Below are positions 2,831 to 64,000 of a DNA stretch of 64,000 bases, in pieces (position 1 is the stretch's first letter; every line of letters begins with the position of its first letter). The DNA lies in the NCBI GenBank assembly GCA_030248225.1, contig JASANE010030215.1, positions 20,132 to 84,131 on the forward strand. The letters run 5' to 3'. Source of the stretch: Trileptium ribeirensis (taxonomy: Eukaryota; Nematoda; Enoplea; Enoplida; Thoracostomopsidae). The notes below the pieces were generated by a model. It did not search any database. It saw only the letters and a program-made list of their open reading frames with translations, and was not told where the DNA came from. A program made the translations under genes and the position numbers.

Positions 2831-3224
2831 CTTGATGTATAAATAGCTATTACCGAACATTCCAAAATCCTGTAAAAACGTTTTCATAAACATATCAAAT
2901 ATAATGCCTCTTGGGGTTACTTGAGCCTGACCTACATCTCTTTTATGCCTTCGGTATAAAATATATTTCTGTTATTTCCTTGTAATTGTTTTGGCTAGTG
3001 GAGCACCAAAATTTTTTATAAGAAACGCTCGGAGAGACTGTTTTCTACGAAGAAGCCGAAAAAAATAAAAAAAACTGAAAAGTACTATATAATAATTAAA
3101 AACTGAAATGTAAATTGGTAAACGCCGACATTTTTCAAGATATACAGATGAAGCTTTGTTAATTTTAACGCTTTTAACACTAGAGAGTACAAATTATTTT
3201 ACCAACAGAACCACAAAAGTTGAA

Positions 3225-3940
3225 GCTAAAAAAGGTGGTCCTACTATTTTGGAAAAGTTCATGGTAAGTAGTTTTATCTGTACTATAACCAACTCGCATT
3301 GCTAGCACGTCGATCTAAAATCCTGTGCTAAAAAAGGTGGTCCTACTATTTTGGAAAACTTCATGGTAAGTAGTTTTATCTGAACTATAACCAACTCGCA
3401 TTACTAGCACGTCGATCTAAAATCCTGTGCTAAAAAGGTGGTCCTACTATTTTGGAAAACTTCATGGTAAGTAGTTTTATCTGAACTATAACCAACTCGC
3501 ATTGCTAGCACGTCGATCTAAAATCCTGTGCTAAAAAAGGTGGTCCTACTATTTTGGAAAACTTCATGGTAAGTAGTTTTATCTGAACTATAACCAACTC
3601 CATTGCTAGCACGTCGATCAAAAATCCTGTGCTAAAAAAGGTGGTCCTACTATTTTGGAAAACTTCATGGTAAGTAGTTTTATCAGAACTATAACCAGCT
3701 CGCATTGCTAGCACGTCGATCTAAAATCATGTGCTAAGAAAGGTGGTCCTACTATTTTGGAAAAGTTCATAGTAAGTAGTTTTATCAGAACTATAACCAA
3801 CTCACATTGTTAGCACGTCGATCTAGAATCCTGTGCTAAGAAAGGTTTCTCCTACTATTTCGGAAAAGTTCATAGTAGTAGTTTTATCAGAACTATAACC
3901 AACTCGCATTGCTAGCACGTCGATCTAAAGTCCTGTGCTC
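3225..3940. repeat. Satellite: seven copies of a 102-bp unit
   Basis: Units begin GCTAAAAAAGGTGGTCCTAC at 3225, 3327, 3429, 3530, 3631, 3733 and 3835, so the period is 101-102 bp. Central copies differ at only a few bases, while the outer copies (first, sixth, seventh) carry more changes, the usual pattern when unequal exchange homogenises the middle. Most units contain ATGGTAAGTAG, a strong splice-donor-like string, by chance or otherwise. A minus-strand open frame over part of the array only reflects the repeat. Confidence 0.95.
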
Positions 3941-3944
3941 CCGT

Positions 3945-5736: not shown

Positions 5737-8700
5737 TAATAGTAGTAAACAATTATATAGCGCCGATTTCGTTAAACGTTCCACAGGCGCGTTATATAAA
5801 TACGATCAATGTCTAAATAAATACGTTTCAGTCTGCTCGTGATTTGTAGTCTTGTTAGGTTTAGATTCCTTAGGTTGCAGCATATTTGTGTATAATTCAC
5901 AGCATTTTCTATTATATTCACTGCATTAAGATGTAAAATCGGTAGGGAAATTGCATTGAGTAAACGAATCGCTTGAAAAAAGAAACTTGCGAAATTGTAG
6001 AAAATATACAGGGACAATCTAGTTAAGAAAAATGAAAAATAAAATTTATTTTCAATTTATCGTCCAATAATCATTTTTGTGTTTTCAGTAAACTAGTGAA
6101 GTGGTGGAGTTAAAATAGCTTTGTTACCTTCATGCAAGGAAACAAGGCATTCGACAGATTTCGTTTTCGTGTCACTAAACGTGATTCCACTGTTATTGAA
6201 TTCGGAGATGGAGAAGCGCCAGGTTCGGAATCGAAGAATTCTCACTAGACCGCACTATGGTGAAAATTATGGGCGTCCGTTTATTTTTTCTCTGTAAACA
6301 GGAGTTCGTTATCTCAACGTAATCCGATGTGGACGTGTGAGGGCTCTTATGAAAGCTACAATACTCTAGATGTGCCTTTTGGAGGTTTTATTTCGATTCG
6401 ACCCATCTACGTTCCACCACAGGGCGTCAAAGGGGTGTACCCAAGGGTACATGGGTAAAATGAGCTATTTTTGGGTCATTTTTGCTTATAATTCGGCAAC
6501 CCTTGAGCCAATTTGAATCATTTTGATATCGAAATATGTGTGCTAGGAAGCTTTATTTATGAGTATATAAATTGTTTGGTCGGGTCCCTATAGGGACTAG
6601 CAAATTTCCAAAATTTTGTTCAAAATTTGTTCAGGTGTAGCTATGTAACCACTCAAGCGATTCAAACGAAGTATGGTGTGTGCATAGTCAACAGATTTGA
6701 TGCATAGCCTCTCGGTCAATTGTCATTTGAGGCCAAAGTTGGGCCCGACGCCATAAATGGTCATCCGTGAAATTACCACTTCTAACCGTATATTAATAGA
6801 TTTGTGGCTCAAAATAAGTTCATATGGGTTTTCGCAGGTGCAGATTTCAAATATTCTCTGTATTTAAACGTATCTCTTCGTGTAGAGGTAGTTATATCAA
6901 TGGTTGCAACAAGGCGACTGATGCGAAAGGGACGAGTGTCATGCGGTCTGTATCAAATTCTGTTTATTTTCTGTTACTGTGTTTTTGTAAGATTCTTATA
7001 TATACATAGATAGCACACATATGTTGTTCACGATTCGTAAGCAGTTCTGTGGTAGAGTTAACCTTCGTAGGGTACGTACTAGATATCTGACTATCAGTTT
7101 TGCTGCATGTATGCCTTATCGAACTTAGTAAATATTTTTTGGCGAATTACATCTTTGGTTCGTAACAGGAATATATTTTTAATGAGTTGTTCCACTGCAT
7201 GTTAACGTTACAGTTTCTCAATTCTTCGAATTCATCCACTTGGCATGTCGCCAAGGTCCTAGTATATTTCCTCCAAAATTTTGATGAATGAATAAAAGTT
7301 TTAGATATTGAATAATTTGATGACGTTTTGTTTTCGGACTGCTCATAAACTTTAGATACAGTTTCTAATATCTTGGCTTTATAATAACTAAGTGCAATCG
7401 CTATATAAAGTAATTAATATGAGTGGATAAACAGTTTTTATTTAAAGATAATCATTTTGTAAAAATAATTGGCAGTCGTCAAACTTGTTTGAGACATTTT
7501 CAGCTGTTTATCAGGGCATTCTTCATGGACCATTAACACTTCTAATCTATGTTATTATGTTGCACTTTTTGTTGACACAATATTGTACATCCGCTGGTTT
7601 ATACAAGAATATCTAACAGGAGCTAATAGCTTTGTCTTTTAATTATCTTTTAATTTCTTTATAGATTAAAATATTGTTATTTTAAACTTTAATTACTTAG
7701 TATTTTTATTGCTATATTTTTCCAATTAAAGTGGGACTTTCAACTAAATGGTCACAGCCTAGTTTCTAGTATATATACTTCAGCGATCAGCATGTGTCAC
7801 TCATTACTGTATCTTTGCGTTGAGCTAAATTCATAAATTAAATTTCCAGGACATATAACTGATTCAGCGACAACATCCATGAGACTTGTTTAAAATATTA
7901 CCATAATTTTTCAGTATTAAAATATCACATTTTAAATGATTTTTTCTTGTACTTCCCATAGAACAAATTTGAAATATTGTAATCAAGTTTGGAACTGAAG
8001 ACATAAAAGCTAATAAACGAATTTAATAAGGGTTCACTCAGAAAATAACTGACTGTAAACACCTTTAAATGGTTAAAAATCACATATTGATAAAAGCTCA
8101 TACATGAGATATGTTGTTGGAATTTAAATATTTAATGATTTGGTTGATTTAGTTCTAAAATTTTCAAATTTTTGAACAATAATCCAATACACCAAAGTTC
8201 CGTGAACTCTACACAGAGTGTAGCTGATTAAATGCTAGAGAATACTCACTTGCAAAATAAATCGAAAATTCCTTAAAATGGGCTATTTAAACACGTCTTA
8301 ATGTTTCTTACACTATCTGTTTCCTTTGCAGATTCTGATCTGTCACATTGTCTTATTACAGAGCATTTTCAAATCTAAATCGCACGTCTTTACCCAATCA
8401 TATTTTTTATTACAGCTAAAATGTTGCTATTTATATTTTGCCAACTATTCATGACCGGCTGGTAAAATAACAAATAGATGATAACGCGGTAAATGCGCCG
8501 CTTAATAATAATACTGAAATCGTAATTAAGTAAATTGGCAATGACACAGTCCTGCGGGCTAAATCCCTGCAAAAGAAATATTGTACTTTGATGCGAAAAC
8601 GTGAAGATTTGAATGCCCGCTGCTATACCGCGTTGTAATATAACGGATGCATGTTTTGTATAATATCTTTGCTGATGGGACTAGATTGAAAAGCGCTAAC

Positions 8701-9965
8701 AATAGATTCCGGTGAAGTCTCGATTATTTATTAGTAGATTAAACTCTATTTAGTTACAAAAGTTCTATGACGCGTAAAAATGCGACCAACCGATTGAAAT
8801 AGTTTTGCATCATTTTAATACTATAACTATTGCAACGCTATTAATACGATTATTTATTCCAAGTTGAAATAAAATAGTTCGTTATATATTGCATTTTCAG
8901 TTTAGTGCAGTGGATTGCGCTTTACTAATGCACATCACTGTCTCAAAAAATATAGGATTCTCCAAAAGTTCAATTAGTGAAACACATAAATATGCCTGTG
9001 CTCAATGTTCAATTTCAAAACAAGTCCTCAGGCTTTTACGCCTTTGGCAGACCCAACGGTGTATTAAAATTCATGAAATTAATAAGGCGTTGTTAAAATT
9101 CACATTTTGGAAGATCCTTCAAAAATTGTAAAAGGTCTGCAGAAGCACTTATCGAGTTCTTCTTTTAAATTTACCGATGTGAGTTATTTGCAGTAATCAT
9201 CATCAAGTTCTAGGCTTGTCTATACATCCGTTTGGTGCTATTTTAACCTTCGTGCTACGCCATGTTTGCATCAGAAAGGAACATGATATAGTTGCAACTG
9301 TATTGTAAGGGAAAATATGTATGAAAAGCAAGTGTTCAACTGCTTGTTGTTGATTGTTATTTGTGTGATGCTTTAAATATTTGAAAAGTTTGGCATTTTT
9401 ATCCATCAGCTACAACTGTTGTGCACTTTGCATCCTATGAATTTAATAACTTGTAACATCAATGACATATAGCTGTATAGTTCATTTTCAATGAGTTCTT
9501 TCTACAGATTAGAATAATTCGGTAAGTGCCGAAAGAGAACATCCATGAGAACAAATAGAGTTCAGGGCAAAGTATAAATCAACCTATGCTGACCATAACA
9601 TTGTTTATGGTAGACTCCACTCAGAAAAGGTAAGTGCCAGACACGAAAATGAAAAAGATAACTTTATATACAGTACAATTCTGTTCTGGGTTCTTGCGAC
9701 TTCAGAATTTTAGGTTAGGCTTTAAGCCATGTAGTCAACAAATGCATATGCTTAACCCAAAGCTCCAGGTGCAGTATTTAGCTTTCGTGGTTACGTGAAC
9801 AAATTCGAAAATTATGATCAATATTGCAAAATCATGATTATCACAACTAAATTTTCATTACAGCGCGTGAACGCATCAAACTTTGCTAAAACGTTTCGCA
9901 AGAAGTTTTGGCAACAGACGTCTTTGTGTTGAAATTAAAATATACTATTTTAAATTAAAGTATAT
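5737..9965. other. Non-coding DNA with possible decayed repeats
   Basis: No supported gene in about 4.2 kb. The part at 6225-6830 is somewhat richer in GC, with phrases such as GGGGTGTACCCAAGGGTAC, and may be an old dispersed repeat, but I could not match it elsewhere in the window. The longest open frames are 60-80 codons and have no motifs. Confidence 0.45.
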
Positions 9966-18224: not shown

Positions 18225-18585
18225 ATACATGTAATAGTTGTAGCATGATTTCTGTGTCTCAACCATTTGTACGCACAGTTGTGCGATAATCCAAGTGCGG
18301 AGGTTGAGCCGAGCCGTGCGAGACGAAACCGAGCACGAGGTTATCGCTATGCGATTGCGCATCGAGCAAAAGCGCAAGTGTGACACGAATGCAAACGAGT
18401 GCGTAGCACGAGTTTGAATGAGTGATCGCACGCGCGCTTGCAAGTATGGGAATCCATAGCGATAGCCTCGTGCTCGGTTTCGCCTCGCACGGCTCGGCTC
18501 AACCTCCGCACTTGGATTATCGCACAACTGTGCGTACAAATGGTTGAGACACAGAAATCCATGCTACAAATAACTTGTGACATGG
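18225..18585. repeat. Near-perfect foldback, ~113-bp arms
   Basis: The arm at 18,240-18,351 is the reverse complement of 18,455-18,567 with only about four differences. The arms contain GTGCGGAGGTTGAGCCGAG and its complement. About 100 bases lie between them, and weaker pairing extends to roughly 18,225 and 18,585. Open frames of 112 and 128 codons over it exist on one strand only because the arms are open when read both ways. The high arm identity means it is young or kept alike by gene conversion. It ends about 320 bp before the recombinase start codon. Confidence 0.95.
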
Positions 18586-21900: not shown

Positions 21901-23095
21901 CGCAATTGGCTCCAGAATCGTTGAATGTTTCCCGCGTGAACTCGGGAGTGAACAGTGAACATAGATGTGACCTGGACAGCTGTCAAACTAACCAGTCTGA
22001 AAGTCTGTTTGAAAGCGAACAGCACATAGAAGTATGTTTTACTTTACACCTATCACATGGTATGCATTACTTTTGTAGTTTTTAATGTAATAATGTATAG
22101 TATTGTTTATGCCTCAAATGTATTCGATATAATTATTTTATGCGCCTAATTTGTAGTTTACTTATCACCTTGTGCTATATGCTCTAATGAAGTGTATTCC
22201 TTTTACAGGATATAATGTATGAATTGACGCAACCTCAGACGTCGCATCAACTTAAGCGGAAATTGCCAACTTGCAGTATGGTTTCTAACTTGTCGAATGC
22301 AACGCAAGACTGTAATGCACACAGCTGGCAGCACGATTATGAAGTAAATAACATGAAATATGTACAATATATTACGAATATTCTCAAATGACATTCCGCA
22401 ATCTTGATTTACTAAATATTACATGGTATAATATCCGTCCCACAACACCGCTCTTAGTTACTATAGATACATACTTAACATAAGTTGTAAAAATCATCCA
22501 TTCTTAAAGAGGTTTCAGCAATTCAAATCTTTTATTGTACTGTTTGACATAACACACCTAGAGATGAGCATTTGTATTGTTAAATTATATTTCTGTTTTT
22601 AAGTGTTTTGACACTGCATTAATATAATAAAAATTTTGCATTTGTACTGCTTGCTTTCTCACTTTCTTTTTATTAATTACAGACCTGCTCATCAACCACT
22701 TCCTGTGATACATTGTCTCCGCGTTCCGGTTATCAAAACACCGACATCTTTAACGCCACAAGAATGGACTCCCTTTCCACATGCACTACAAGTAACACAG
22801 TGGCATCGCAGCAACTACAGGTAACGTAGAACTTACAGAATGATGAAAAATTTAATATCATAAAATGCATAATACGCTTAATTAACAGGCTTTACGTTGC
22901 ACAGGTATTAAGATGAATATGTGTGACTCGCATATACTACGGCAAACAGACAATTCATGATAACATTATTGTTATTGTCGTTTAATTTATGAACGGTACT
23001 AAAAAGTTTTGGAAGAACGTGTCGCTTTGATATGATAATATAGGTATTTAACTATTTAATAATTTTAACTTCAGACGATCGCAAATCATTACTAA
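18908..23095 (+). CDS. Crypton-type tyrosine recombinase (DUF3504) gene, nine exons
   Basis: Exons with GT-AG borders and kept frame: 18,908-19,160; 19,386-19,500; 20,176-20,473; 20,766-20,942; 21,230-21,436; 21,858-22,031; 22,209-22,343; 22,683-22,820; 23,075-23,095 (TAA). They total 1,518 bases, about 505 residues. The start is the ATG of MASQNEL; an in-frame ATG lies upstream at 18,845. Exons 1-5 carry the family pattern: LWLTRF, SLYYIACGISRYL, LDGRMKQL, FGLRGRDEHRDL (first catalytic Arg), TNHSGKTTLATQL, IMERTGH and VRKYKR (Tyr). This resembles the recombinase domain of Cryptons and their domesticated relatives (ZMYM, KIAA1958, QRICH1). The usual NHSLR Arg is replaced (NHSGK), so strand transfer is doubtful. 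Exons 6-9 encode a Ser/Thr/Gln-rich tail without a known domain. TATAAAC at 18,815 could be a TATA box. The gene is intact; it is either a domesticated gene or a recent Crypton. Confidence 0.85.
19404..20000 (+). repeat. ~298-bp tandem duplication including exon 2 of the recombinase gene
   Basis: The stretch 19,404-19,701 (3' part of exon 2 plus intron) is repeated at 19,702 to about 20,000. The second exon copy, 19,706-19,798, stays open, keeps its donor (AAAG then GTTAGA) and differs at a handful of codons (for example QDNKRS becomes PDNKRP). It has an AG directly before it (GAATCAG). Splicing from exon 2 into it would give an in-frame 31-codon insertion. Using it in place of exon 2 would not keep frame. 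Confidence 0.9.
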
Positions 23096-27683: not shown

Positions 27684-28318
27684 TAAGGCTAGCTACACAA
27701 TATGCTGTTATAAAAAGGCAACACAAGAAAATTGAAGCGTTTTCCTTTTTTCCAAGCTCCACCGTCGTCAAAACATAAATATACGTCTTCAGCGGTAAGC
27801 CAATTCTATCCTTTTTCTACGCAGAAAAATCATCTACTTTAAAGACCCTTCAGTTTTCTATGACTTTCTACGCTAAGTTGTCGCACATCTTTGTAGAATT
27901 TTAATGGCGGTTTTTGGGTTATATTAATGTATATAATAGAATCACAAGCTCTTCTCCTTCTTAACGCCATAATAATTCTGTTAGAGTTGTGCGGAACTAA
28001 CTCCACAAACAAATAATGTATACTAAATTTATAATTCCATTTGGCAGGAATGTGCAACCTTAACATTGAAACACGGAGTTTGAAAAATTCTTTTGGAAAT
28101 ATCATGAATTCGACCACATTATAAGTGCTAAATTTAGAATAAAACATTTTAGTAGGCGCCGAAAGGACAATAAAAACTGGCTGTCAATAATGCGGTCATT
28201 CCATACTTCAGGATTTATAGATTCACATGGCTCTAGGTCTAGGCCTAATCAACGTCTGACATACATGACTTAGTGCTTGTTTGTTTATAGTGGTCTGATG
28301 GCATAAATTATATAAATG
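27684..28318. other. Non-coding DNA
   Basis: No repeat or supported gene. A 102-codon minus-strand open frame at 27,839-28,147 shows no recognisable domain. Confidence 0.45.
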
Positions 28319-28322
28319 CAGG

Positions 28323-29135
28323 TGAGTTTTAGGATTTAGTCCTATTAACATTAAAGAAGAAGTAAACAAACGAACTAGCGTTTCTGTATTTGGTGTAGTC
28401 AAACATGGCCTATAGGCTGTAGACAAACATGTATTCATGTTGAGTTTTAGGATTTAGTCCTATTAACATTATGGAAGAAGTAAAAAAAACAAACTAACGT
28501 TTCTGTATTTGGTGTAGTCAAACATGGCCTATAGGCTGTAGACAAACATGTATTCATGTTGAGTTTTAGGATTTAGTCCTATTAACATTATGGAAGAAGT
28601 AAACAAACAAACTAACGTTTCTGTATTTGGTGTAGTCAAACATGGCCTATAGGCTGTAGACAAACATGTATTCATGTTGAGTTTTAGGATTTAGTCCTAT
28701 TAATATTATGGAAGAAGTAAACAAACAAACTAACGTTTCTGTATTTGGTGTAGTCAAACATGGCCTATAGGCTGTAGACAAACATGTATCCATTGAGTTT
28801 TAGGATTTAGTCCTATTAACATTATGGAAGAAGTAAACAAACAAACTAACGTTTCTGTATTTGGTGTAGTCAAACATGGCCTATAGGCTGTAGACAAACA
28901 TTTATTCATGTTGAGTTTTAGGATTTAGTCCTATTAACATTATGGAAGAAGTAAACAAACAAACTAACGTTTCTGTATTTGGTGTAGTCAAACATGGCCT
29001 ATAGGCTGTAGACAAACATGTATTCATGTTGAGTTTTAGGATTTAGTCCTATTAACATTATGGAAGAAGTAAACAAACAAACTAACGTTTCTGTATTTGC
29101 TGTAGTCGAACATGGCCTATAGCCTGTAGACAAAA
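28323..29135. repeat. Satellite: seven copies of a ~118-bp unit
   Basis: Units start TGAGTTTTAGGATTTAGTCC at 28,323, 28,441, 28,560, 28,678, 28,793, 28,912 and 29,030 (period 116-119). They include TTTCTGTATTTGGTGTAGTC and CATGGCCTATAGGCTGTAGA. Inner copies are almost identical; the last has several changes near its end. The CATGGCCTATAGGC core is partly palindromic. Confidence 0.95.
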
Positions 29136-29204
29136 AAGGTCTTCGAACTCGAAACACATTTGGAATTAACATCGCGAATTTTAGTTAGAACCGAGCCTTT
29201 ACAA

Positions 29205-29465
29205 ATCCATTTAAGTCGTGGGTGTCGACGACGAGGGACGGACCCCTCGCATCCTTCCCGCACGACGAATGAGCGCGGTAAACATTAGCGAAAATTGACT
29301 ACAATAGGGTGAAGATTGGAAAAAAATTGGAGTTAAATTGGTAAAAAATAGTGGAAATTAAGCAAAAATTTAATCCAAATTGGCAAAAATATGGGTAACA
29401 CCGCGCCCTCGTCGAGATCATCTACCACCCCCTCCTCCGTAATCGTCTACCTAGTCCCTAGCTGA
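29205..29465 (-). repeat. Dispersed repeat, copy 2
   Basis: Inverted relative of 13,385-13,665. It has the GAGGGACGGACCCCTCGC end followed by AT-rich phrases with AAAATTGG and AAAAATTTAATCC spacing. Old and diverged. Confidence 0.4.
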
Positions 29466-50690: not shown

Positions 50691-51449
50691 CGGTTCTGAC
50701 GCGGGGTACGGCGATGGGAATGTCGGAAAGTAGGGTTTCGTATTAGTTGCATACTGCAATAGGTCACAGAAGCAAGGCGGGTTGGCCTAAAAAGTTGTCC
50801 ACAGCACACGCACACATGAATAGATACCTATACATATTCTATATATGACATGTCCTAGCTACATGGAAGGTGATGGTCCGGGTTGCACGGCGACAATCCT
50901 ACCTAGCGTAAGTAGCGATTGTCCCTACGTTTTACAAGCGAAGTTGCGGCGCTGTCAGGAGTGCCTTTGGATGTCCATTCGCAATTCCCGAAGCGTTCTG
51001 CCAGCCTACTCTGGTATTTCTCCATACCACGATATCGCAGACGGTGACGGACCTCCGAATGAGCCCGGCATCCGTCGTCCCTTACAGTTGCGAGTGCACC
51101 AAAGTGTGATTTCCGCTTATTCGGACTTGTTGTTTTCTGTAACCATTACCTAGTATGTTACTAAAACCAAGTAAATTTAATATTTTTGATTTCAGTCTTA
51201 ACATACGTGTTTTCCTGAACGTGCAGCCAGGGGCCTCCTATTCCCGGACGGTAGTAGCCGTCAACCCTATAACACATGATGCCTACCGGTTGAGTTGTCG
51301 ACTGCTTTCCAACTGTCGTCGACGTAAAACTCTATTTTCGGTCATACAGGTCGGTTGGGGGCGGCTCATTTCATCATTCTCTTCCTAATTGTAACACTCG
51401 TCCCTAATGAAGTCATGAATTACAACAAAGTACACGGCATGTTACGAGA

Positions 51450-51872
51450 CAGATAACTAGTGTAAGCGGCATGTTATACAAACGGTTAAGAGATGTAAGC
51501 AATATTTTACACAAACGATCAAGGAATGTAAGCAATACTTTACACAAACGGTTAAGGAATGTAAGCAATATTTCATACAAACGATTAAGGAATGTAGGCA
51601 ATATTTTATACAAACGGTTAAAAATGTAAGCAATATTTCATACAAACGGTTAAGGAATGTAAGCAATATTTCATACAAACGGTTAAAAATGTAAGCAATT
51701 TTATACAAACGATTAAGAAATGTAACCAGTATTTTATACAAACGATTAAGAAATGTAAGCAATATTTTATCCAAACGATTAAGGAATGTAAGCAATATTT
51801 TATACAAACGATTAAGGAATGTAAGCAATATTTTATCCAAACGATTAAGGAATGTAAGCAATATTTTATACG
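51450..51872. repeat. 33-bp tandem array, about 13 copies
   Basis: The unit is ACAAACGATTAAGGAATGTA followed by AGCAATATTTTAT, period 33. Because 33 is eleven codons, the minus strand gives a 184-codon open frame of an 11-residue repeat (around RLYKILLTFLN). This is a by-product of the array. Confidence 0.95.
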
Positions 51873-52486
51873 AAATGGTCAACCGACACAATGCGACCTT
51901 TGTATGTACAACCAGCCGTGTACCGAGGCATCCAGCTACAATTTTGAGTGCAAACGCCTTGAAGTGGTCGTGACAGGGCCAAAGCGGCCCTGTTACATTA
52001 GCATATCTCATTGGCCATTGTTGGTCTTAGCCAAACATCGTGGTCCTGGCCTGCTAATTTTGAAGTTAGTTGCTTTTGAGGAATTTCTCAAAATGTATTA
52101 TCCGGTGCAAATTTAGTCATATTTCCGACGAGTCCTCCTTAGATACTAGCAATTTCTACGTCCTGAAAAGTCCTCCTCTTATATTTTTAAGGGGGTGAAA
52201 AGGACTTTGCACTCTATTTTGAAAGAATTTTGCCTGGTCAAAAGTCTTGTGTAGTTATTCTTGCCCTGGTGCCATGGTATATATATAAACATACATACAA
52301 AATAATCATTACTGTTTCAAGATAGGTCATAAAACGATATAGGTACATAATAGGTACAGTATTGTGCAATCAAAACTTCCGTAGCATACCTTCCGTTTAG
52401 GTTTACCGCAGGTGTCCTTAGCGGTTTGTTGTGGCAAAATGCAAAAGAAAACACATAAAAATCTTAAATAGTCAGCGGTCGCCTTG
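51873..52486 (-). other. Region 3' of the retroelement coding unit
   Basis: No gene. On the minus strand TGTAACAGGGCCGC at about 51,993 and a purine-rich AAGAGGAGGAC at about 52,175 are each candidates for LTR edge and polypurine tract, but neither can be tested without the other LTR. Confidence 0.35.
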
Positions 52487-53087
52487 TCATATCGGCACTT
52501 CCTCCTTGTTGTCCCAATCCCCACTATTGGGTGCTAGCTTCCGTTGAACCCATTTACGAAGATATTCGATATAGGGCTCGGCAACGTGGGGCTCCACCCT
52601 TTCACTGCCGTCGGTGCTGGTCTCCCAAGCGCCCGATTCGGTTAACTCGGGTGGGTAGTCTGGCATCGACGATTTCCGCATTCTGTCGGGGAACTGCCAT
52701 TTTATGTCCTGAAATAGTTGGGTAAATTGGTCGTGCCATTCGACAGTATTGTCCTGTCCGATGTCCCAATGTGGAGGTGGCGGCGCAATAATTGCTCGGG
52801 CTCCATCACTGAGCAGGTAGTCGAATGAACAGATATAACGGCGCACTCAACGCATGACCTTGCTGGGCGTGTCCAGCAAACGACCTTCGTGCGGCTTCGA
52901 TCGTAGGGCCGCTTTATAGCCGCCAAGAATAATGATTGTCCTGGTTTGCGGCGTCGCGATGCAGGTCGCCAACCGGACTAAGAATTGCATGGTGGTTCCC
53001 GGCCAAGCGATGGCGAACCACCCCTTTGATGTGGCCATATTGACCAGGGGCGCTGCTAATGAGTCGCCCAAAATCAAGGCAGTTGGC
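52487..53087 (-). pseudogene. SGNH/GDSL-hydrolase-like domain, C-terminal end of the retroelement
   Basis: Follows the NADAR domain in the same frame after about 15 residues. It starts with ALILGDSLA, the GDS block of SGNH hydrolases. AWPGTTM then fits block II, TIIILGGYKAA the strand and turn of block III (usually G-x-N-D), and TDGSERVEPH the final D-x-x-H block. The Ser and Gly are present, but the Asn of block III and the final His are not in their usual places, so either the domain has diverged or this copy is damaged. Family members are esterases or lipases; some LINE families carry a similar esterase in ORF1. A TGA at 52,847 interrupts it, and the unit ends at TGA 52,487. The family call rests on motifs only. 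Confidence 0.5.
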
Positions 53088-53771
53088 CAGGAGGCGACGT
53101 TATGGCGGAGGAAGGATCGAACTTCCTCCTATAGGCGACCCATAACATTGTGGCAGTCTCGCGGTCGTTTGCCGAAAGTGAGGTCCTCTGGCCCTAGGCC
53201 AATCCCCCAAAATGAGTCGGACCTGTTTGCCTCGAGCAATTGGGCATATCCGGTGGCTAGTAGGGCGTCCCTGAACCGAGGAATTTTGAATTTTTCTAGT
53301 AGCACCGTCCGCATGAGATGAGGCAGTATTGGACGGAGGTGCTCGGGTGTTTCTGGGTCCAGGAATTTTTGTTTGTTCCGGCGGGAGATGGCTTTCACGT
53401 CTCGAGCTCTCATTTTCAGGTCTGAAATGTCCTGTTTCGCCTGGTCCTCGTCGAATAAATAGGTGACGAGGAGCTGGTATCCTTGCTCCGTCGAGGCGTA
53501 TTCGATGGGGTATTGCTTTATTGTTTTGGCCTAACGGAGCCATGTTTGAGAGTTCCGGCCAGTGTGTGCCTTTGGAGAGGAACGTTTCGATTGGAGCACC
53601 ATAGTTGATGGTGTAGTACGGCACACGAGGTTGTGGAATTTGTTCCATGTTGTTTGAATGGTTTGATCCGGCGATTCCTGCAATAGTATTCATCGCCATT
53701 AGTGGCGGTTCTTGAGGGAGATTAGTAGCGGGAGCTCGAGCTTTCTGGGAGTGTTTCTTGAGTAATTTAAA
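53088..53771 (-). pseudogene. NADAR (YbiA-like) domain in the retroelement polyprotein, frame-shifted
   Basis: NADAR domains are linked to ADP-ribose and NAD chemistry; characterised members are N-glycosidases, for example on riboflavin intermediates or ADP-ribosylated guanine. The N-terminal part (53,699-53,525) has PYYTINYGAPIETFLSK and WPELSNMAP. After a one-base shift near 53,523, the other frame gives YPIEYASTEQGYQ (the conserved E...Q helix), then FRDALLATGYAQLLEA and DSFWGIGLG, the family's signature. The closing pattern N-x-x-G-x-x-L-x-x-V-R is present as HNVMGR, L, stop, EEVR. The TAG at 53,129 sits exactly at the conserved Leu, one base from TTG. A second shift near 53,780 separates it from the linker. 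It lies 3' of integrase and before the SGNH-like domain. The fold call is firm; the role in the element is unknown. Confidence 0.85.
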
Positions 53772-54844: not shown

Positions 54845-56040
54845 CTATGGGCCCTTAGTTCCACGCTCCGCTAGGGGAGACAATAGAGGAGGGATGGTCC
54901 ACCGGTGGGGTGGTGTCGGGGAATCGGTTGTTTCAGGTGACGTGGTCTCCGAACCTACGGATGATACTGGTTCATTAGTCGGTGTAGGGTGTTGGAGTTG
55001 CTTTCGTTGTGGTTTAGGCTTAGGTTTTGGTGTTGGTGCATGTTCCAGTGGAGGTTGACTGGTTACTGGGACGTATTGAGCGGGTTGTGGTCTAGGAGGG
55101 GTGTAATACGGTGTGAGCCATTCATCTGGAACATAGTCCTCTAGTGTGGCTTCGAATCCCAGTGGCATTAGGGGAGTATGTGGGAGTGGTGTAGGTGGGG
55201 CGGAGTATGCTTGACGAGGTATGGGATATGGTTCTTCATAAGGTGTTATGGGTTCGCGAGAGATAGGGTATGGTGTCACTGGCTGGCCTGATTCGGTCAC
55301 TAAACGTTGTGTCTGGGGGCTGCGGGATGTTTGAGTAGCGATTGCGGCTCGACGTTGGGCAGGCGTAAGAGGCGAGTTTTGAACGGCATGTTCGACGGCT
55401 GACGTTGGGGATGTGGCTTGTTCTGGAGTGTGGGGCGAGTGTTCGTCCGGATCTTGTGAGGCGAATAATTCTACGAGGCCTAGGTCATTAACGTTGAATG
55501 GTCGTAGTGCTCGGCCGTCCTCTGAGCGTTTCACCGTTAGAGGTCTGGTAGGCTCCTCAGTTCGAACTGATCGTTCCTGTTCTCGTAGGGTTACTGGGGC
55601 AATATGTTGTCCATACTCGGGCGAGAAGGTACCAGGGGGTTTGTCAAGCGCGTAAGGTAACTTAGCGGGGTCTAGGGTAGCGAGTTCCTGTGATATAGCG
55701 GGCCATTCAGTGTCCGGAGTTCTGTCAGGGTCACAAAGGGGAAGTCTGTTTTGTTGTGGGGCTTCTGATGGTCCTTGAGCCTGAATGGTCAGCTGTTCTA
55801 CTGCGGCGCGGTGTATGTCTGCCTGAGCTTGCGTGTATTCTAAGTTAGGTTCTCCAATTTCTACACTAGCGACGTCGGATGCACCATCAATCTCCTGGCG
55901 CAACCTGTCGACTGCTTCTGGATCTGCAGCCTGTAATTCCCTGGCGAAATATCTGTCAGCTAGGATGGTTTCTCCGGGTTCCTGTAATGCAGCCTCAATA
56001 TAGGCGGGAGGGACTGCCTTGAGTAAATCGGCCATGTCGG
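54845..56040 (-). pseudogene. Long Pro/Thr/Gln-rich integrase C-terminal extension
   Basis: Continues the integrase frame for about 400 residues beyond the GPY region. Low-complexity stretches rich in P, T, E and Q (PTPKPKPKPQRKQ, PYPISREPITPYEE) with one more ordered patch (VKRSEDGRALRPFNVNDLGL). There is no chromodomain, which ends integrase in some Ty3/gypsy lineages. The function is not known. Confidence 0.6.
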
Positions 56041-57013
56041 GAAAGCTGCTTAGCGGGTGATAGCATGGTTTGGTGCGGTTTATGTGAACGACATGATCGG
56101 AAGCATTAGGTTGTCCGGGGAGTTTAACGCAAATGCAAGGGAGCATTATTTTAGTGATCTGGTAGGGTCCACACCACCTACGTTCTAATTTACGTGATAG
56201 TCCTGGTGTCTTGTAGTATCGATAGACCCATACATGGTCATTAACACGGTAGTCCGGGACCTTGACCTTACGATTGTAGTAGCGTTTTCTGTATTCCCAA
56301 GCAGATTGCATGGATCGATAGGCTTGATCCCTGATGGTGGCTAACCACCGTTGCACATTCGCGCGATACGCTTCTGCTCCGGGGTAGCGTCCCCAATCAG
56401 TTTGCGTTTCGATTCCACCCGATACTCGGGGTTGGAATCCGTGCATGAGCATGAATGGTGGATAGTGCGTGGAAGCGTGTACTGCTGAATTGTGGGACAT
56501 GATGCAATATGGTAAGACTTCATCCCAGGTGGTATGGTCTTTTTCCGGCAGTGCTACCCTTAGGAGAAATAATAGAGTACGGTTAAAGCGTTCGATCTCT
56601 CCATTTGCCTTCGGGTTGTAACTTAGGGGCTCGCGTTTGAATGTATGTAGTCTAGCGCACAAGGCCTCCATTACTTCCGAGACGAAACATCCGCCTCGGT
56701 CTGAGACTAGCTCTTCGGGTGCGCCATAACGGCACACCACGTCCTCGACGAAGACCTTGGCTACACTCTTAGCGGTTTGGTCTGGCAAAGCGGCGGCAAC
56801 TACTAATTTTGTGAACTGGTCGATGAAGGCAATTACGTACCTATTTCCGTTCCGGGATAGTACCCGAGTGTCCAATATGTCGACAAACATGCGATGCATG
56901 GGTGCACTAGCCAACGGGTTCTCTCCGAGCGCGGCTCGAACATTTTGTGGTAGATTCCTTGATCGTTGGCAGAGCACACACCGTTTAACATATTCGTCTA
57001 CGTCCTTACCCAT
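56041..57013 (-). pseudogene. Integrase catalytic core and GPY region
   Basis: DDE-type integrase. After the TAG at 57,020 the frame runs on: CVLCQRSR completes the HHCC zinc site, then the core has MFVDILD (Asp45 counting from the Met at 57,013), LVSDRGGCF (Asp105) and NPKANGEIERFN (Glu141), which gives D-x35-E. HASTHYPPFMLMHGFQPR is the usual Ty3/gypsy stretch, and RRWCGPYQITK the GPY motif. All catalytic residues are present. Integrase would insert the cDNA copy into host DNA. A normal Ty3/gypsy integrase would end soon after; here the frame continues with about 400 extra residues. Confidence 0.95.
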
Positions 57014-57019
57014 GGTTTC

Positions 57020-58033
57020 CTAGTAGTAGAATTGTTTAAGTTTGCTCAGTAGTCGATCCCGACCAGGGTGTCCACCAAACAGTGTGTCGTGTTCGTGCTT
57101 GAGTATTTGTCGTATAAGCAATCTGGGTACGCATAATTTTGGTCTATGGTCGTTTGGCATGATGGGATGTAAGTATAGAAAAGCGGTATCGGGGCAGAGA
57201 CTGTAATGGTGGGCTTTTAGTTTGAGGGGGGTCGCTGCCTTTTCGTCGGCTGGCGACTGTCGCGTATGCAAATACCACCAAATAGGACCAAACTGTTTAT
57301 CTCTGCGTTGAATGTACGGCAAGTAATTGAGGAGGTTCCTCCCTTCGTATTGTTGGAAGTGTGGTAAGTATATGTGTTCTCCAGTGTCATAGACCTGTTC
57401 AGGGCGTTGTAGTTGTATTCGCGGTCCGCATGCGTAAGCAACCCTAATTAAAGTGTCAAACTCCTCTACTTCGGGTAATCCTCCATATCTCTGTCTAGCA
57501 GTTGTCGGTAGCGTCCGTGGTCTAGCGGGTTCAGGTGTACCAGCCGTGGCGCGAGTCGAGCTTTCACTTGCCGCAATAGGAGCGGGCGGTGTGGGAGCGG
57601 TCGGGGGTTCCGGAGGTTGCGGGGGTCTGGCGGGGAGGTCGAGTGCAGGTGATGGTCCATGGGTCGGTTCACCAGTGGATTCTGGTGGTCGTGGGACAGT
57701 CGTTCGTCTCCCGGGGACCTCAACTCCTTCAGGCCATGGGTCGTCTATGTCTCCACAGAAGATGAAGCGTGTTGGATCGGGTAGGGGATCATAACCAGGT
57801 CCTCCAAACATACGATAGAAACGTTCCCGAACGTACTCGGGTGGTAGGGTGACAGGAGGGTCCGGGAGAAGTCCCATGAGTTGTCGAGTAAGTCGTTTCC
57901 AAACTTCTTCGGTGGGAAATCGACGGGGCGGTTTAGCTGGAGCTTTGCCTTTACCACGATCCTGTGCTTTGACAGCTACAGCAACCATTCGAGGATGGTC
58001 CTGTTCGTCTTCGTCTGAAGAGTGAGAAAATTC
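57020..58033 (-). pseudogene. Insert between RNase H and integrase, plus integrase zinc-finger start
   Basis: Opens just after the RNase H frame break (58,035) and ends at TAG 57,020. The beginning is acidic (SHSSDEDEQDHPR), then basic (KAQDRGKGKAPAKPPRR), then about 70 residues very rich in Pro (PPRPPQPPEPPTAPTPP-like), then a more ordered stretch (IRVAYACGPRIQLQRPEQVY, HFQQYEGRNLLNYLPYIQRR). The end has HEHDTLFGGHPGRDRLLSKL, the two His of the integrase HHCC finger. Most Ty3/gypsy elements have a short link here; over 200 extra residues are unusual. The TAG replaces what is often a Trp codon (TGG) in this motif. Confidence 0.8.
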
Positions 58034-58035
58034 TA

Positions 58036-58748
58036 CGTCGTGTCGGGATCGCGTGAAAGTCCGTCTGCGTTGGCATTAGCCTTACCTGGCCTATATTCGA
58101 TGTTGAAACCACCGAATTCCATCAGTAATTCGTTACGCCATTGGGCTAGTCGCGAATTTCGCGGTGGTCTCTCGAACAGTGCCTTAAGTGGCTTATGGTC
58201 GGTCTCAACGTGGAATTCGTGTCCAAGTAGGTAGTGTCTGAAGTGTAAGGCAGCCCATCGTATGGCCAGAGCTTCAGTCTCTATGGCAGGATATCGGCGT
58301 TGATAGTCCACAAGTGATTTACTCGCATAGGCGATAGGCAATGTCCCTTTATCAGTCTTTTGCGAAAGCACAGCCCCCATGGAATATCCAGAAGCGTCCG
58401 TTTGGAGTATAAAAGGTTTAGAAAAGTCTGGATATATGAGCAATGGTTCTTGTACCAACGCCTTACGCAGTTTTCCGAACGCTTCCTCGCATTGCGGTGT
58501 CCATTTAAATTCGCTGTCCTTTCACCGAAGTGCATTGAGTGGTTCGCAAATTTCAGAGTGGTGTGGTATAAATTTATGATAGTATCCGACAAGTCCCAAG
58601 AAACTTTGCAATTGTTTGAGGGTTTCCGGTCGTTTGTAATTGTCTATCGCGGCGGTTTTCTCGGGGTCGGGTTTAACTCCCACCGAACTGATAATATGTC
58701 CCAGGTATTTTAATTGTTTCTGCCCAATTTGGCATTTAGAAGGCTTTA
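58036..58748 (-). pseudogene. RT connection and RNase H domain
   Basis: Starts in a new frame after a one-base loss near 58,754 and is cut by TGA at 58,522. The connection part shows KYLGHIIS and a QSFLGLVGYY block. RNase H has ILQTDASGYSMGAVLSQ (first Asp), ETEALAI (Glu), VETDHKPLKALF (Asp) and ANADGLSR (last Asp), all in the normal order for Ty3/gypsy. It would degrade the RNA strand during reverse transcription. A second one-base shift at about 58,035 disconnects it from the integrase part. Confidence 0.92.
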
Positions 58749-59573
58749 ATTTAAGTTGGGTTTCCGGAACCTATCAAATAATGTTATTAAATCCGCTAGT
58801 TGTTGTTCGAATGTGGGTGAAAAGACCAATATGTCGTCTATGTAGATGAGGCATCGTTCCCATTCTAGGTCATTTAATATGATTGACATGCACTTTTGAA
58901 AGGCACCTGGTGAAGAATTCAGTCCGAATGGCAGAACGTTATATTCATACTGTCCGTGGACAGTGACGAAGGAGGTTTTATCCTTGGTCTCGGGGTCGAG
59001 TTCTAACTGCCAGAAACCTTTGTTAAGATCTAAACTGGACATGAATTTGGTGTTCCTGAGACATCCCAAGATGTCGTCTATGCGGGGTAGTGGGTACAAG
59101 TCTCGTTCTGCCACTACGTTGAGCTTACGGAAGTCGACACACAACCGTAAGGTACCGTCACTTTTGGTGACGTAAACTATGGGGGAACCCCAAGGTGAAT
59201 CTGATGGCGTTATTAAACCTGCTTCTACCATGTTGTTTAGTTCCTCCCGCAAGGGTTCCCGCAATGAGTGTGCTAGGCGGTACGGTACCTGTTTAATAGG
59301 TCTTGCGCCTCCGGTGACTATCCGGTGTTGGTGTACACCGCATCTTCCGAGATCGAACGGGTGTACAATAAATATGTCTGCGTTTTTAGAGATAGTTGTT
59401 TTCAATTGTTTGAGTTCGAAAGGGTTTAGGGTCGCTTGTCCGAAATGTATTGCAATGTATCGCTTGTATGGATCGCTCGGTGTCAATAGTCTTCTTTTGT
59501 TCGCTTATGATCTGTACAACATTGTCTCGTGTAACCCCGATATTGTTGCATTGCTTATTGCGTCTGGGAGGGT
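58749..59573 (-). pseudogene. Reverse transcriptase domain
   Basis: Clear Ty3/gypsy-type RT in the same frame as the protease. PYRLAHSLREPLREEL and GLITPSDSPWGSPIV lead in; DFRKLN, SSLDLNKGFWQLEL (first catalytic Asp), LPFGLNSSPGAFQ and YIDDILVF (the catalytic pair) follow. The fingers and palm are intact. TAG at 59,574 and TAA at 59,505 lie between protease and RT; the second may be a side effect of a nearby single-base shift, since the neighbouring frame is open there. The domain ends at a stop caused by a one-base loss near 58,754. Confidence 0.95.
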
Positions 59574-60290
59574 CTAGTTACTGTCATATAAGAATTCGAC
59601 CTCGTTATCGTCCAGCATCTCAATATGTCCGATCGTTTGTCCGGCATGTATAGCGACGGGAAAGTTCCCAAAGTTCATCAATGCTATTGGGATCATGCGT
59701 TGGCCAGTGAGTACCAGAGAGTGGGCGATGGCAACGTCCTTGATAAAAAGGTCAGGCACAAATAGGGCTTGACCTGTCGGTGGTTGGGTGATTTCCGGGA
59801 TGGCGTTGATGAACAACTCGGTGTTCGGTGGTACTTGAGTGTATTTCCTGGTTACGACGTTGATGACTGGTGGTCTGTAATCCCCTTGGTCGGCGAAAGG
59901 CGCCGAGCAGTTTTCGGTTCCATTAGATAGGTCCAAGCAGCGGTCTTTGAAGTTTATGGCGACATATGGTAGTAGGGCCATAAAGTCGGTACCTAAGATA
60001 CATTCGTACGGTGTGTCTGTTGTTACCTGGAAGTCGCACGGTGTACTTAACGATCCTATTGTGATCGGTGCTTTTACTACTCCGCTGATTGTCAACTCTT
60101 GTTGCGTAGCCGATACTATACGGGTAGTGTTCGTGTCGCGAGGAACCAGTCCTAAACGGGCAGCTAGGGCTTGGGACATAATTGAGACGTCGGCTCCAGT
60201 CTCTACAAGTGTCATAACTGGGGTGCCAAGCATGGTTGCATTAATAAGTAATGGCGTATTGCCGGCATTCATGGTGTTTAATTGTCTAGT
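59574..60290 (-). pseudogene. Aspartic protease domain with altered active site
   Basis: In frame with the envelope-like region upstream and RT downstream. TPLLINATMLGTPVMTLVE is followed by TGADVSIM, the active-site loop, and later by ECILGTDFMALLP, the second signature (ILGxD). The loop should read DTGA; here it is ETGA (codon GAG at 60,201-60,203), a catalytic Asp-to-Glu change expected to stop or strongly weaken cleavage. A region typical between protease and RT in Ty3/gypsy follows (GQALFVPDLF, PVAIHAGQTIGHIE). The domain would cut the polyprotein. Confidence 0.9.
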
Positions 60291-60599
60291 GAACATACCT
60301 TGACGAGGTACACGGCGGGAATCGCGGGTGGGCGCGACAAACAGTTCGTCGTCCTCGATGAAAACAAGTTCTTCCTCGGATGAGTTACGTGATGTTAATA
60401 GTCTGTTCGAGCGACGTGGGGCACGGCTGGAGGCGACGGACACGCGCGGCGTTCCCGAAGGCCTAACCGTGACCTCTGTCGGCGATGTCCTGTCTGTATG
60501 AGGGAAGTCGTCCTCTGCGGGTGGGGCACTCGGTAATCGATGCTTCGCTCTAATCCATCGTATCGCTTTCTTGGGCTTACTATCGGTCCTAATTAGTCG

Positions 60600-62423
60600 T
60601 TCGCGACATGGGAACCATCGGGGAATATAATATCCGTACTTAGGCGGGACCTTGCATTTAGTCATAAAATAAATTAGTCTGATCAGTCCTACAGCTACGG
60701 TGATGAGAAAGTAGGGCAAGAATCCCGTGTATTCCACAGCGGGAAGATTAACCACGCTACGGACTTGATCCTTAGCTATCTGCGCGACCCGCAGATTTAT
60801 AGCTTTAGCGTTATCGAGTGATTCCCACGTCAACGGTCTTAGTTTGATACCGGATAGCCGGTCAATAGTAATATTCGGTCCAAATTTTATTGTAATTTTC
60901 TCGGGTTTCAGCATACTGGTCAGTACGATCGACCCTATTACTAACTGTGTGTAGTTCCCGTGTGGGAACCATAACACTCCATTTGGCGGTACCTTTATCG
61001 GCTTACCCAACGTGACGTGAGCTAGTTGTCTCCGATTTGTCAATATAACCTCGGGTTCACTAGTCCGAATTAATACGCCTTGTATAGTCGTGTGTACGGA
61101 TGTGTCGTTGGCAAGTGGGCCTATCAATGAGCGGTTGCTGCATGTGTGTTTCATGGTCTCGGACACATGTTTGCCTGCAATAATCCATTCTAAACAATTT
61201 GTACTATGATCGGTTATCAGCGCGTGCGGTTCGCAGAAAGCGATTCCTGGTCTTTGCTTGCATGCTCCCAGATTTAGTGATTCGAAGCGAATGTGCCCTA
61301 AGCGGGCAGCATATTGAGGCAGCGGCAGTCTCAGCTGCGTTAGCGTGGCAGGTGTGTTCCAGCCAGTATTATAGAATCGAAAATACGGTCGAACATCATT
61401 GCGCATTGGCAATGGTAATTGCAAAATGAATCCAAAGCGAAATGCAGTTAAATCCACGCTCACAGGCATGACGCGGCCAAACTGATAGGCGAGGCTAGGC
61501 TCGCGCATGAGGATAGTCTTGGAAATGCGTGGGTCCATGGAAAACAACCGCCGTAACATGACGACATCGATAACGGCGGGAGATAATTCGCCGTTAAGCA
61601 TGGATTCCATTATAGCTTGTACCGACGAGCGCATGTTGGCTCGAAGGATGTGATCTATTAACTAATGGTGCACATGCGCGATCTCTTTCTGATCGGCGCA
61701 CCTAACCTGTTCTATCATAGAGGCGACCTCTTGCATGCTATGGTGCAGAAAAGCGTAGATGTCCTCGTTTGCTCGTGTCAGTTGCCTTATGGCTTTAGTG
61801 TTTCGAAAGGAGACATCGTTGGTCTCACGCATGAATTTCTCGAGGACAGTTACCTGTTGGCGAACATTGTTGATGTGTACTCCATTAGAAAAAGCCGTTC
61901 CCAGGCCTAAGAAACCTGAGACGGCACCTGCGGCGGCGGCAATTACGCTGGCAAAGCGCTTTTCTGTTTTATTCGTAAGGTCACATAGTTATTTGTTTGC
62001 GACGCAAAAAGAGTGCACAAGTAGCGAGTAACAGTTAGTGTCCAGTACGCCATGATAGGCGTCATCTAGCTCACGTTCCAAAGCGCTCAAGGTCTCATGC
62101 AACTGTGGATATTCGGTGCAGTTAACCTTTCGGCAACAGTCAGCGCGACATGATCCATTCGCTTCATAGGGTGGACAGAACTTACTCACATAAGGATCGG
62201 ACTTACGTTCCCAGTCTCGAAGTGATAACTGCAATACCACTGGCAAGTGCGTTGTCTGATCAGAGGTGACCACCAAGCCCTGTGGCTCAATGACCACTCC
62301 TACTTGTCGATTGAGAAAAGCACCTAAGCGCGAGATTGAGTCGCTGAATGGCGAAAGCGTTGCACGTGTTGAGCTAAGCGCTGCGAGCCAAAGTAATAAG
62401 AGAATTGTACAGACCCTCCACAT
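60600..62423 (-). pseudogene. Envelope-like class I fusion glycoprotein, upstream of protease
   Basis: Starts at the Met at 62,423 with a signal-peptide-like MWRVCTILLLLWLAALSSTRA, then an ectodomain with clustered Cys (CPPYEANGSCRADCCRKVNC). After TAA 61,989 the frame continues: a KR pair, then AAAAGAVSGFLGLGTAF (about 61,955-61,890), a Gly/Ala-rich hydrophobic fusion-peptide-like stretch, then about 60 residues that look helical with heptad spacing. After TAG 61,662 come further Cys pairs and N-glycosylation motifs (NRS, NDT, NYT), and a membrane span FLPYFLITVAVGLIRLIYFM (about 60,722-60,663) followed by a basic tail. This architecture matches F-type glycoproteins of errantiviruses and baculoviruses. 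Unlike those elements, it lies before protease and in the same frame. Three stops or more make it non-functional. Confidence 0.75.
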
Positions 62424-64000
62424 ACCTGAAGGATGGCCGAGACCATTACTAAGGCTCGGTGAAGAGGGTCGTACCCCATTTCGACTGGGTTCCCTCATGG
62501 TCTCGTTGCTCGTAACTTTTCCCGTGGTGTCGCTTTTAGTTTCCTCGTCACTCGTGTCCGTGTCACTCGGCTCAGTTATACTTTCTTGCTGGGCGGAGTC
62601 GCTATTGGAGCTATCCCCCGACTCCTCGTCAGATGAGTCGAGGTAAGCGGCCAATGCTGTGGTTAATTGTTCGTCCAAATTCGGGACGGAACAGTTGGTG
62701 GCATCGTCCGGAAACAAGCATAGTTTCGAGATTAGGCGATCCCTGCCCAACTGTAATCCAACTGACGTGTCTCCTTCCGTCTCAAGCAGTCCAGCAATGT
62801 CGGGGCGACGTAAAAGTCTCAAGCGTGCGCTCAGCAGTACTAGTCGAGCAAGTCGGTGGGTTTCGTCGTCGAATTCCATATTATTCATTGCTTGGTCAAC
62901 AAAGGAGTTGATTGGAACACCTCGTGTATCTTGGTTTTGGTAAATGAATTCGATCAAGTAAGGCGCCCCGCACAAGAGGTCATGTAACTCGAGGTTCGCC
63001 TCACGAAAACTTTTCTGCATTTTGGCTGACTGAATTCCGACATAGAAAGGCCAATGAGGTGCTATGTATCCATCCGGAAGGATGGACGCGCACGCGGTGG
63101 TCAGCGTACGGTCGTAAGTTCACCTTCCTCGTTGAACGAAAAAGTAGCAGCGTGAGCCTATATCCCGTGAATCTCGTATATGGCGTTCTTGGCACTGGCG
63201 GCATACCGGATCCCTACTCAACTCCTCCTCGAATTCTCTCTCGATGACCTGTTGGAGCGTGTGGCCATTCACGCATTGGCCCACCAGATCGATGAAAGAT
63301 TCCAACGAAGCAAGAGTTACGGGACCAAGATACATCCCGGTCATACAGTGCCCGATTGGAGAAGCCATACCTAATATGCTGCTTAGCATGGCGGCGTCTC
63401 GCTGTAAGGTGGGGCGTGTACTAGCTTCGAAACGAAGCTCAAATAGTCGGCTCAAATTGTTTAGTTGTTCCATTACAATTATTACTCTCCGATAAAAGAG
63501 AGCCTGCCGTTGCAATGCCAAGGGTTGTCCGTGGGCGGCATTGATTTCACTAGTCCTAAAATTAATTGGTATAAGTCCCTCAGCTGACTTTTTGCGCGCA
63601 TCCTCAGTCAATTCGATGCGAGGGAATTGATAAGCTACGGTCTCGGCATGGTCCGTAGACATAGTGAACAATGTGTCAGTCCCGAGGATTCGGGTACGTT
63701 CCTCGTCCGTCATTGCTCTAACTCGTCCAAGTTCGATCGGCATATTATTGGGAAGGCAAAGTCCAGACATGTCCAGTAAATGTTCGTCAAGTCGATGTAC
63801 ACGTTCGTCGTTAGCTTCTCGTATAAAATTAAGCAGATTCTCTTGTCCCATACACACGTCCGAGTCCTCACTAATCACACTCACTGATTCTTCCGAATTA
63901 CCCGGGGACATACATGGTCTCCCTTCGACGGATTCCTCAGTGGTCCTATCTACTTCGTTTGGGTTGCCCGAGTTACCCGAGGGCATACTAGGCACCTCTT
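62424..64000 (-). pseudogene. N-terminal region of the polyprotein, gag position, unrecognised; cut by window edge
   Basis: The frame is open to the window end, so the start is not visible; TGA at 63,120 interrupts it. It starts Ser/Glu-rich (SPGNSEESVSVISEDSD), followed by a probably helical region (LQRQALFYRRVIIVMEQLNNL, LASLESFIDLVGQCV), a CRQCQERH pair that could bind metal, then after the stop another helical part (ETHRLARLVLLSARLRLLRR) and a strongly acidic Ser/Asp/Glu/Thr stretch before the envelope signal peptide. It sits where gag should be, but I see no CCHC knuckle and no capsid motif (major homology region) I can name. It may be a divergent gag or an extra envelope leader. Confidence 0.55.

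Follow-up and report, generated by a model that had tools for sequence, protein, structure and literature searches.

An envelope-like part ahead of protease, in frame with its neighbours, in a Ty3/gypsy-type element of Trileptium ribeirensis

The minus strand of a 64,000-nucleotide stretch of the nematode Trileptium ribeirensis (assembly GCA_030248225.1, contig JASANE010030215.1, positions 20,132 to 84,131; the whole stretch is referred to as the window) carries a retroelement in which an envelope-like part (env) lies upstream of the protease (PR) and in the same reading frame, with a gag-position region before it and the reverse transcriptase (RT) in the same frame further downstream. On balance, we favour reading it as a dead copy of a large long terminal repeat (LTR) element of the Ty3/gypsy type with the order gag-position region, env, PR, RT, RNase H (RH), integrase (IN) and NADAR domain, in which env is in frame with both of its neighbours and the order is ancestral. 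The layout may be novel, or it may be a chance fusion in one copy.

The shared reading frame

On the minus strand, a single frame extends from 63998, at the window edge, to 58749, and the stop map shows only five stops among its 1,750 codons (63122, 61991, 61664, 59576 and 59507). The open pieces of this shared frame are therefore 63998-63123, 63119-61992, 61988-61665, 61661-59577 and 59504-58749. The parts of the element, with the evidence for each, are the following:

63123..63998, minus strand: first of two gag-position pieces, 292 codons of the shared frame free of stops, continuing past the window edge
62427..63119, minus strand: gag-position region, second piece, with an acidic Ser-rich linker at its end, sharing a stop-free stretch with the signal peptide
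61992..62426, minus strand: signal peptide and Cys-rich surface-subunit-like part (hydropathy, Cys, sequon scan)
61665..61988, minus strand: dibasic site, fusion-peptide-like stretch and first heptad repeat (hydropathy 1.78; 3.5-residue periodicity)
60552..61661, minus strand: rest of the ectodomain (4 Cys), membrane anchor and start of the cytoplasmic tail (hydropathy 1.97)
59577..60551, minus strand: tail or linker and aspartic protease, the domain at about 60242-59979 (Pfam gag-asp_proteas, 1.5e-11; PDB, DDI1 homologue 2, 9.8e-7)
58749..59504, minus strand: reverse transcriptase, in the env and protease frame (Pfam RVT_1, 4.9e-22)
58036..58521, minus strand: RNase H, in a different frame (Pfam RT_RNaseH, 8.2e-36, on 58036-58458)
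54848..57988, minus strand: integrase (zinc-binding part and core) with a long Pro-rich C-terminal extension and a stop at 57022 (Pfam Integrase_H2C2, 4.4e-7; rve, 1e-11)
53132..53530, minus strand: NADAR domain 3' of integrase (Pfam PF08719, 2e-13, 51.3 bits with the cut-off at 35.1; PDB 8bau, 1.7e-6)

Two junctions of the shared frame are free of stops: the 376 codons of 63119-61992 span the passage from gag-position part into signal peptide, and the 695 codons of 61661-59577 contain both the membrane anchor and the protease, with about 140 codons between them. Two of the stops (61991 and 61664) fall within the ectodomain and another two (59576 and 59507) between protease and RT. An earlier note on this DNA had assigned positions 62423, 61988, 61634 and 60281 to one minus-strand frame, as the stop map and the translations confirm, and had described env as fused in frame to pol. 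Of the latter claim, the shared frame and the stop-free passage from anchor to protease stand, with the qualification that the frame is broken by stops at 61991, 61664, 59576 and 59507. The frame is also longer than had been described: on its upstream side it continues, past the stop at 63122, as far as the window edge, and on its downstream side it takes in RT and ends at 58749.

The open frame cannot be put down to chance, since both the stop counts and the longest open stretch lie far outside the ranges of the shuffles. Over the same interval, the remaining two minus frames contain 120 and 96 stops versus five in the shared frame, and first-order shuffles (n=500) have 79.9 stops on average and 47 at minimum, compared with the five observed per 1,750 codons. 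The longest open stretch, of 695 codons, compares with 242 codons at most in shuffles (n=300). From the signal peptide to the protease alone, there are two stops in 714 codons (shuffle mean 32.1, minimum 17). The G+C content at third codon positions is 0.48-0.54 across the gag-position, env, protease and RT pieces, which are alike in G+C by codon position. Under a codon score trained on pol, 11 of the 15 overlapping 300-base segments of the env part (starting between 62650 and 60550) score best in the shared frame among the three read on the minus strand.

The copy is dead, because two of the stops sit inside the ectodomain, and it is also frame-shifted, since RNase H and integrase occupy other frames. 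Of the single-base changes possible in the shared-frame codons, about 4.1% lead to a stop, and 2% of neutral change should bring about 4.3 stops; all five stops are therefore explicable as decay. By the same figures the decay looks slight, so that the observed layout should approximate that of the live element.

In class I fusion proteins, a signal peptide, a Cys-rich part, a dibasic site, a hydrophobic Ala/Gly-rich stretch, a heptad repeat, a Cys cluster and a membrane anchor usually follow one another in this order. The class I run of signal peptide, cleavage site with fusion peptide, heptad repeat and anchor is present in order in the window, interrupted by two stops; all of the features that the earlier note had placed upstream of the protease (signal peptide, Cys-rich part, fusion-peptide-like stretch, heptad region and anchor) were recovered by hydropathy, Cys and periodicity analysis. 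Across the five shared-frame pieces, the hydropathy threshold is reached at three places only, namely the signal peptide (GMWRVCTILLLLWLAALSS, 62426-62370, minus strand), the fusion-peptide-like stretch (FASVIAAAAGAVSGFLGLG, from 61955, minus strand) and the anchor (FLPYFLITVAVGLIRLIYF, 60722-60666, minus strand), in that order. The signal peptide is followed by a short surface-like part with seven Cys residues and two N-glycosylation sequons, after which the fusion-peptide-like stretch, rich in Ala and Gly, begins directly after KR. The heptad region 3' of it displays a 3.5-residue periodicity, and none of 2000 shuffles reached as high a value.

Protease, RT, RNase H and integrase lie on one strand in the Ty3/gypsy (Metaviridae) order, as identified by Pfam. 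In errantiviruses env is the third gene, after integrase; here the env-like part is upstream of protease, and the integrase is followed on its 3' side by a Pro-rich tail and then by NADAR. A 33-base tandem array (51421-51940) is the sole family of direct repeats reported between 50000 and 64000, and the 5' end of the element lies beyond the window, which the frame exits at 63998.

Several observations weigh against this account of the element. The evidence comes from a single copy, and the pair of stops between protease and RT (59576, 59507) may represent real terminators. The codon score is weaker in the env part, another frame being favoured in 4 of the 15 segments. Before the anchor, the periodicity analysis does not support another heptad repeat (0.61 of shuffles are as high), and the dibasic TEKR falls short of the full furin consensus. 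The env part has no Pfam match above the cut-off, its pieces have no significant PDB sequence match (the best values for the fusion-peptide and heptad piece are E 0.27 and 0.56, with unrelated helical proteins), and NCBIfam returned nothing for the pieces scanned (the fusion-peptide piece was left out) except a sub-threshold protease match. Neither the env-protease stretch (7996 candidates at E 0.001) nor its residues 440-695 (1815 candidates at E 0.01) have a protein relative among candidates of up to 1.75 times the query length, a set in which an intact polyprotein could not appear. The envelope-like label and the putative class I fusion protein identity thus derive from the architecture, since there is no family or PDB match and no protein relative, and AlphaFold gave a mean pLDDT (predicted local distance difference test) of 36.6 for the single env piece, of which only the anchor reached about 70.

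The term gag is positional, because a zinc knuckle and a recognised capsid were not found: the gag-position part contains neither a CCHC zinc knuckle nor a Pfam capsid, and some of gag may be located beyond the window edge. The two CCHC-like patterns on the minus strand, at 22057 and 52854, are both outside the gag-position frame. The first piece has no Pfam match above the cut-off (DUF1284, 0.035, is below it) and no NCBIfam match; AlphaFold, run without an alignment, renders it mostly helical, again with a mean pLDDT of 36.6. Within the gag-position part, 29 residues (62712-62798, minus strand) share 52% identity with the integrase zinc-binding region (57029-57115, minus strand; E 0.003); by eye, the His residues are missing, and the match is perhaps due to chance.

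Related loci and described elements

The RT matched 609 of 997 candidate proteins (best 4.0e-64). Scans of viral contigs provided one relative (L001), in which the 1,106 residues before RT contain no membrane-like segment, and the scan of GTDB contigs provided 14 loci; a tblastn search of phage records with the RT gave no match. The RT tree comprises the query, 64 of the best 120 of the 609 matched proteins and 10 of the 15 loci (all but L007, L010, L011, L012 and L014), and contains no named errantivirus. In this tree the query groups with eight proteins in a nine-row clade (support 100/99), which none of the 10 loci joins. The clade members are short proteins, and P0001, P0003, P0004, P0005 and P0007 stop short of the protease and are therefore uninformative on env. 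Single hydrophobic stretches before RT were detected by hydropathy in 6 of the 15 loci (L003, L007, L011, L013, L014 and L015). A run of signal peptide, fusion peptide and anchor before protease was seen by eye in none of the 15, of which at least L005, L008 and L010 end near the protease.

Like the window element, the locus L008 (JASGCW010000145.1, 184-5685, plus strand) has env and pol in one open frame, in this case of 1,834 codons. Its env gives a weak Fusion_gly match (0.0031, below the cut-off) and exhibits by eye a class-I-like run of domains, as in the window. Unlike in the window, env follows integrase, and there is no significant similarity to the env pieces of the window. From its layout, a pol-env fusion in the canonical order therefore exists. 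The contig is filed under a Limnohabitans metagenome-assembled genome (MAG) and is probably eukaryotic contamination. At L015, a gypsy-like pol of the same MAG is followed by an open reading frame (ORF; 7274-9454, plus strand) in which a RING-type zinc finger (3e-4) accompanies a Tudor domain (3e-11).

In simple retroviruses env is placed after pol, and retroviral env is made from a spliced RNA. Several described LTR elements can be set beside that of the window. The errantiviruses and the bdelloid TelKA (PMC5408684) share with the window element the PR-RT-RH-IN series and a class-I-like envelope, that of TelKA having a cleavage site, fusion peptide, coiled coil and anchor; in both, however, env is ORF3 after pol, whereas the window env precedes the protease in frame. 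Cer1 of C. elegans is, like the window element, a Gypsy/Ty3 element with an extra protein beyond Gag and Pol, and its env-position ORF follows pol (PMC10309623). Gypsy elements of Ectocarpus also carry a YbiA/NADAR domain, but differ from the window element, where NADAR is 3' of integrase and an env-like part lies upstream (PMC12477816). The earlier note knew of no Ty3/gypsy lineage with the order seen here, and this agrees with the papers listed by searches on env-bearing elements and gene order, among which no element with env before protease was found. The excerpts consulted came from PMC10309623, PMC5408684, PMC12477816, PMC9503650, PMC11125620 and PMC11543638.

Alternative readings and implications

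The main rival, which we consider unlikely, is that two elements have formed a chimera. Deletion or recombination would have joined the 3' end of one, with its env, to the protease and RT of another, the frame being kept by luck; the upstream pieces would then be the pol tail of the first element, and the layout would be confined to this copy. It would accord with such an origin that in L008 env follows integrase without a change of frame, that the upstream pieces bear no gag signature, that joining in frame has a one in three chance, and that the window offers one copy and stops short of the 5' LTR. Nevertheless, at E<=0.01 the upstream pieces match nothing else in the six frames of the window, the element's own pol tail included, except for the 29-residue match to the integrase region, and a joining of two copies of the same family is therefore unlikely; the composition is even across the junction, and the approximately 140 codons from anchor to protease are open in the shared frame.

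The order could also be real without the product being a single polyprotein, an arrangement that strikes us as quite improbable. An env (or gag-env-protease) unit would then end near 59576, and RT to integrase would be made separately via reinitiation, readthrough or a spliced RNA. The stops at 59576 and 59507 between protease and RT are suggestive here, being 23 codons apart and thus the closest pair among the five, yet by a rough estimate five random stops give so close a pair about once in four times. Likewise, a Met directly precedes the core of the signal peptide, so that env could have its own start, but no stop separates the gag-position part from the signal peptide. We give still less credence to a third possibility, that the membrane part, rather than being a viral envelope, is some other membrane-anchored domain (receptor-like or matrix-like) which tethers the precursor to membranes. 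The lack of a Pfam match above the cut-off and of a significant PDB sequence match would suit it, as would the undetected second heptad repeat; on the other hand, the run of features matches the usual order in class I fusion proteins, and the env of L008, with its weak link to Fusion_gly, has the same run by eye.

If the favoured reading of an ancestral order with env in frame is correct, the internal signal peptide would draw the ribosomes making the polyprotein to the endoplasmic reticulum, the ectodomain would enter the lumen, and the anchor would stop the transfer. The gag-position part and the enzymes would both remain cytosolic, and the pol precursor would be membrane-anchored. Luminal cleavage would be the work of signal peptidase and, at the dibasic site, of a host protease, and cytosolic cleavage that of the protease encoded by the element. 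The enzymes would thus arrive at the budding site tethered to the envelope. It is possible, and we propose it only tentatively, that a Ty3/gypsy lineage makes Gag, envelope, enzymes and NADAR as one membrane-threaded polyprotein and makes the packaging of its enzymes depend on the envelope rather than on a Gag-Pol fusion. Such a product would resemble that of flaviviruses, in which capsid, then glycoprotein, then cytosolic enzymes are parts of one polyprotein. Should this be true, env between gag and protease, in frame, would constitute a second workable coupling of envelope, enzymes and particle assembly, and a single RNA, a single long polyprotein and the cleavage of the enzymes off the envelope's cytosolic tail would be predicted.

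The NADAR domain and the remainder of the window

The NADAR domain, which was absent from the earlier note's account of the element, is also matched by NCBIfam TIGR02464 (1e-9, under its cut-off). By eye, its N-terminal part is probably located in another frame just upstream (53801-53540). E88 and K95 of the E. coli C7 NADAR are catalytic and largely conserved across the superfamily (PMC11543638), and the role of NADAR in retroelements is called unclear (PMC12477816). In our alignment, the STEQ motif has its Glu, and the Lys expected seven residues on is Val (in a decayed copy, and with numbering by eye). A NADAR domain past integrase adds a possible ADP-ribose-removing function to the element.

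Next to NADAR lies one further candidate:

52490..53128, minus strand: SGNH/GDSL-like hydrolase candidate, in two open pieces with a stop at 52849 (ILGDSL motif by eye)

This candidate has no Pfam match, and the sole PDB match of its first piece, Esterase TesA at E 0.79, is not significant. A step in G+C content at 45.5 kb leads from about 0.38 to 0.49, and the content is mostly higher through the window end; the element, or its 3' end, may therefore begin there. Elsewhere in the window, four other ORFs have no Pfam match above the cut-off, and the Rfam and tRNA scans were empty. Two tandem arrays (28246-29252 and 3123-3944) are composed of units of about 118 and 102 bases, respectively, and an inverted repeat at 18247-18559 consists of 105-base arms, 98% complementary, with 103 bases between them.
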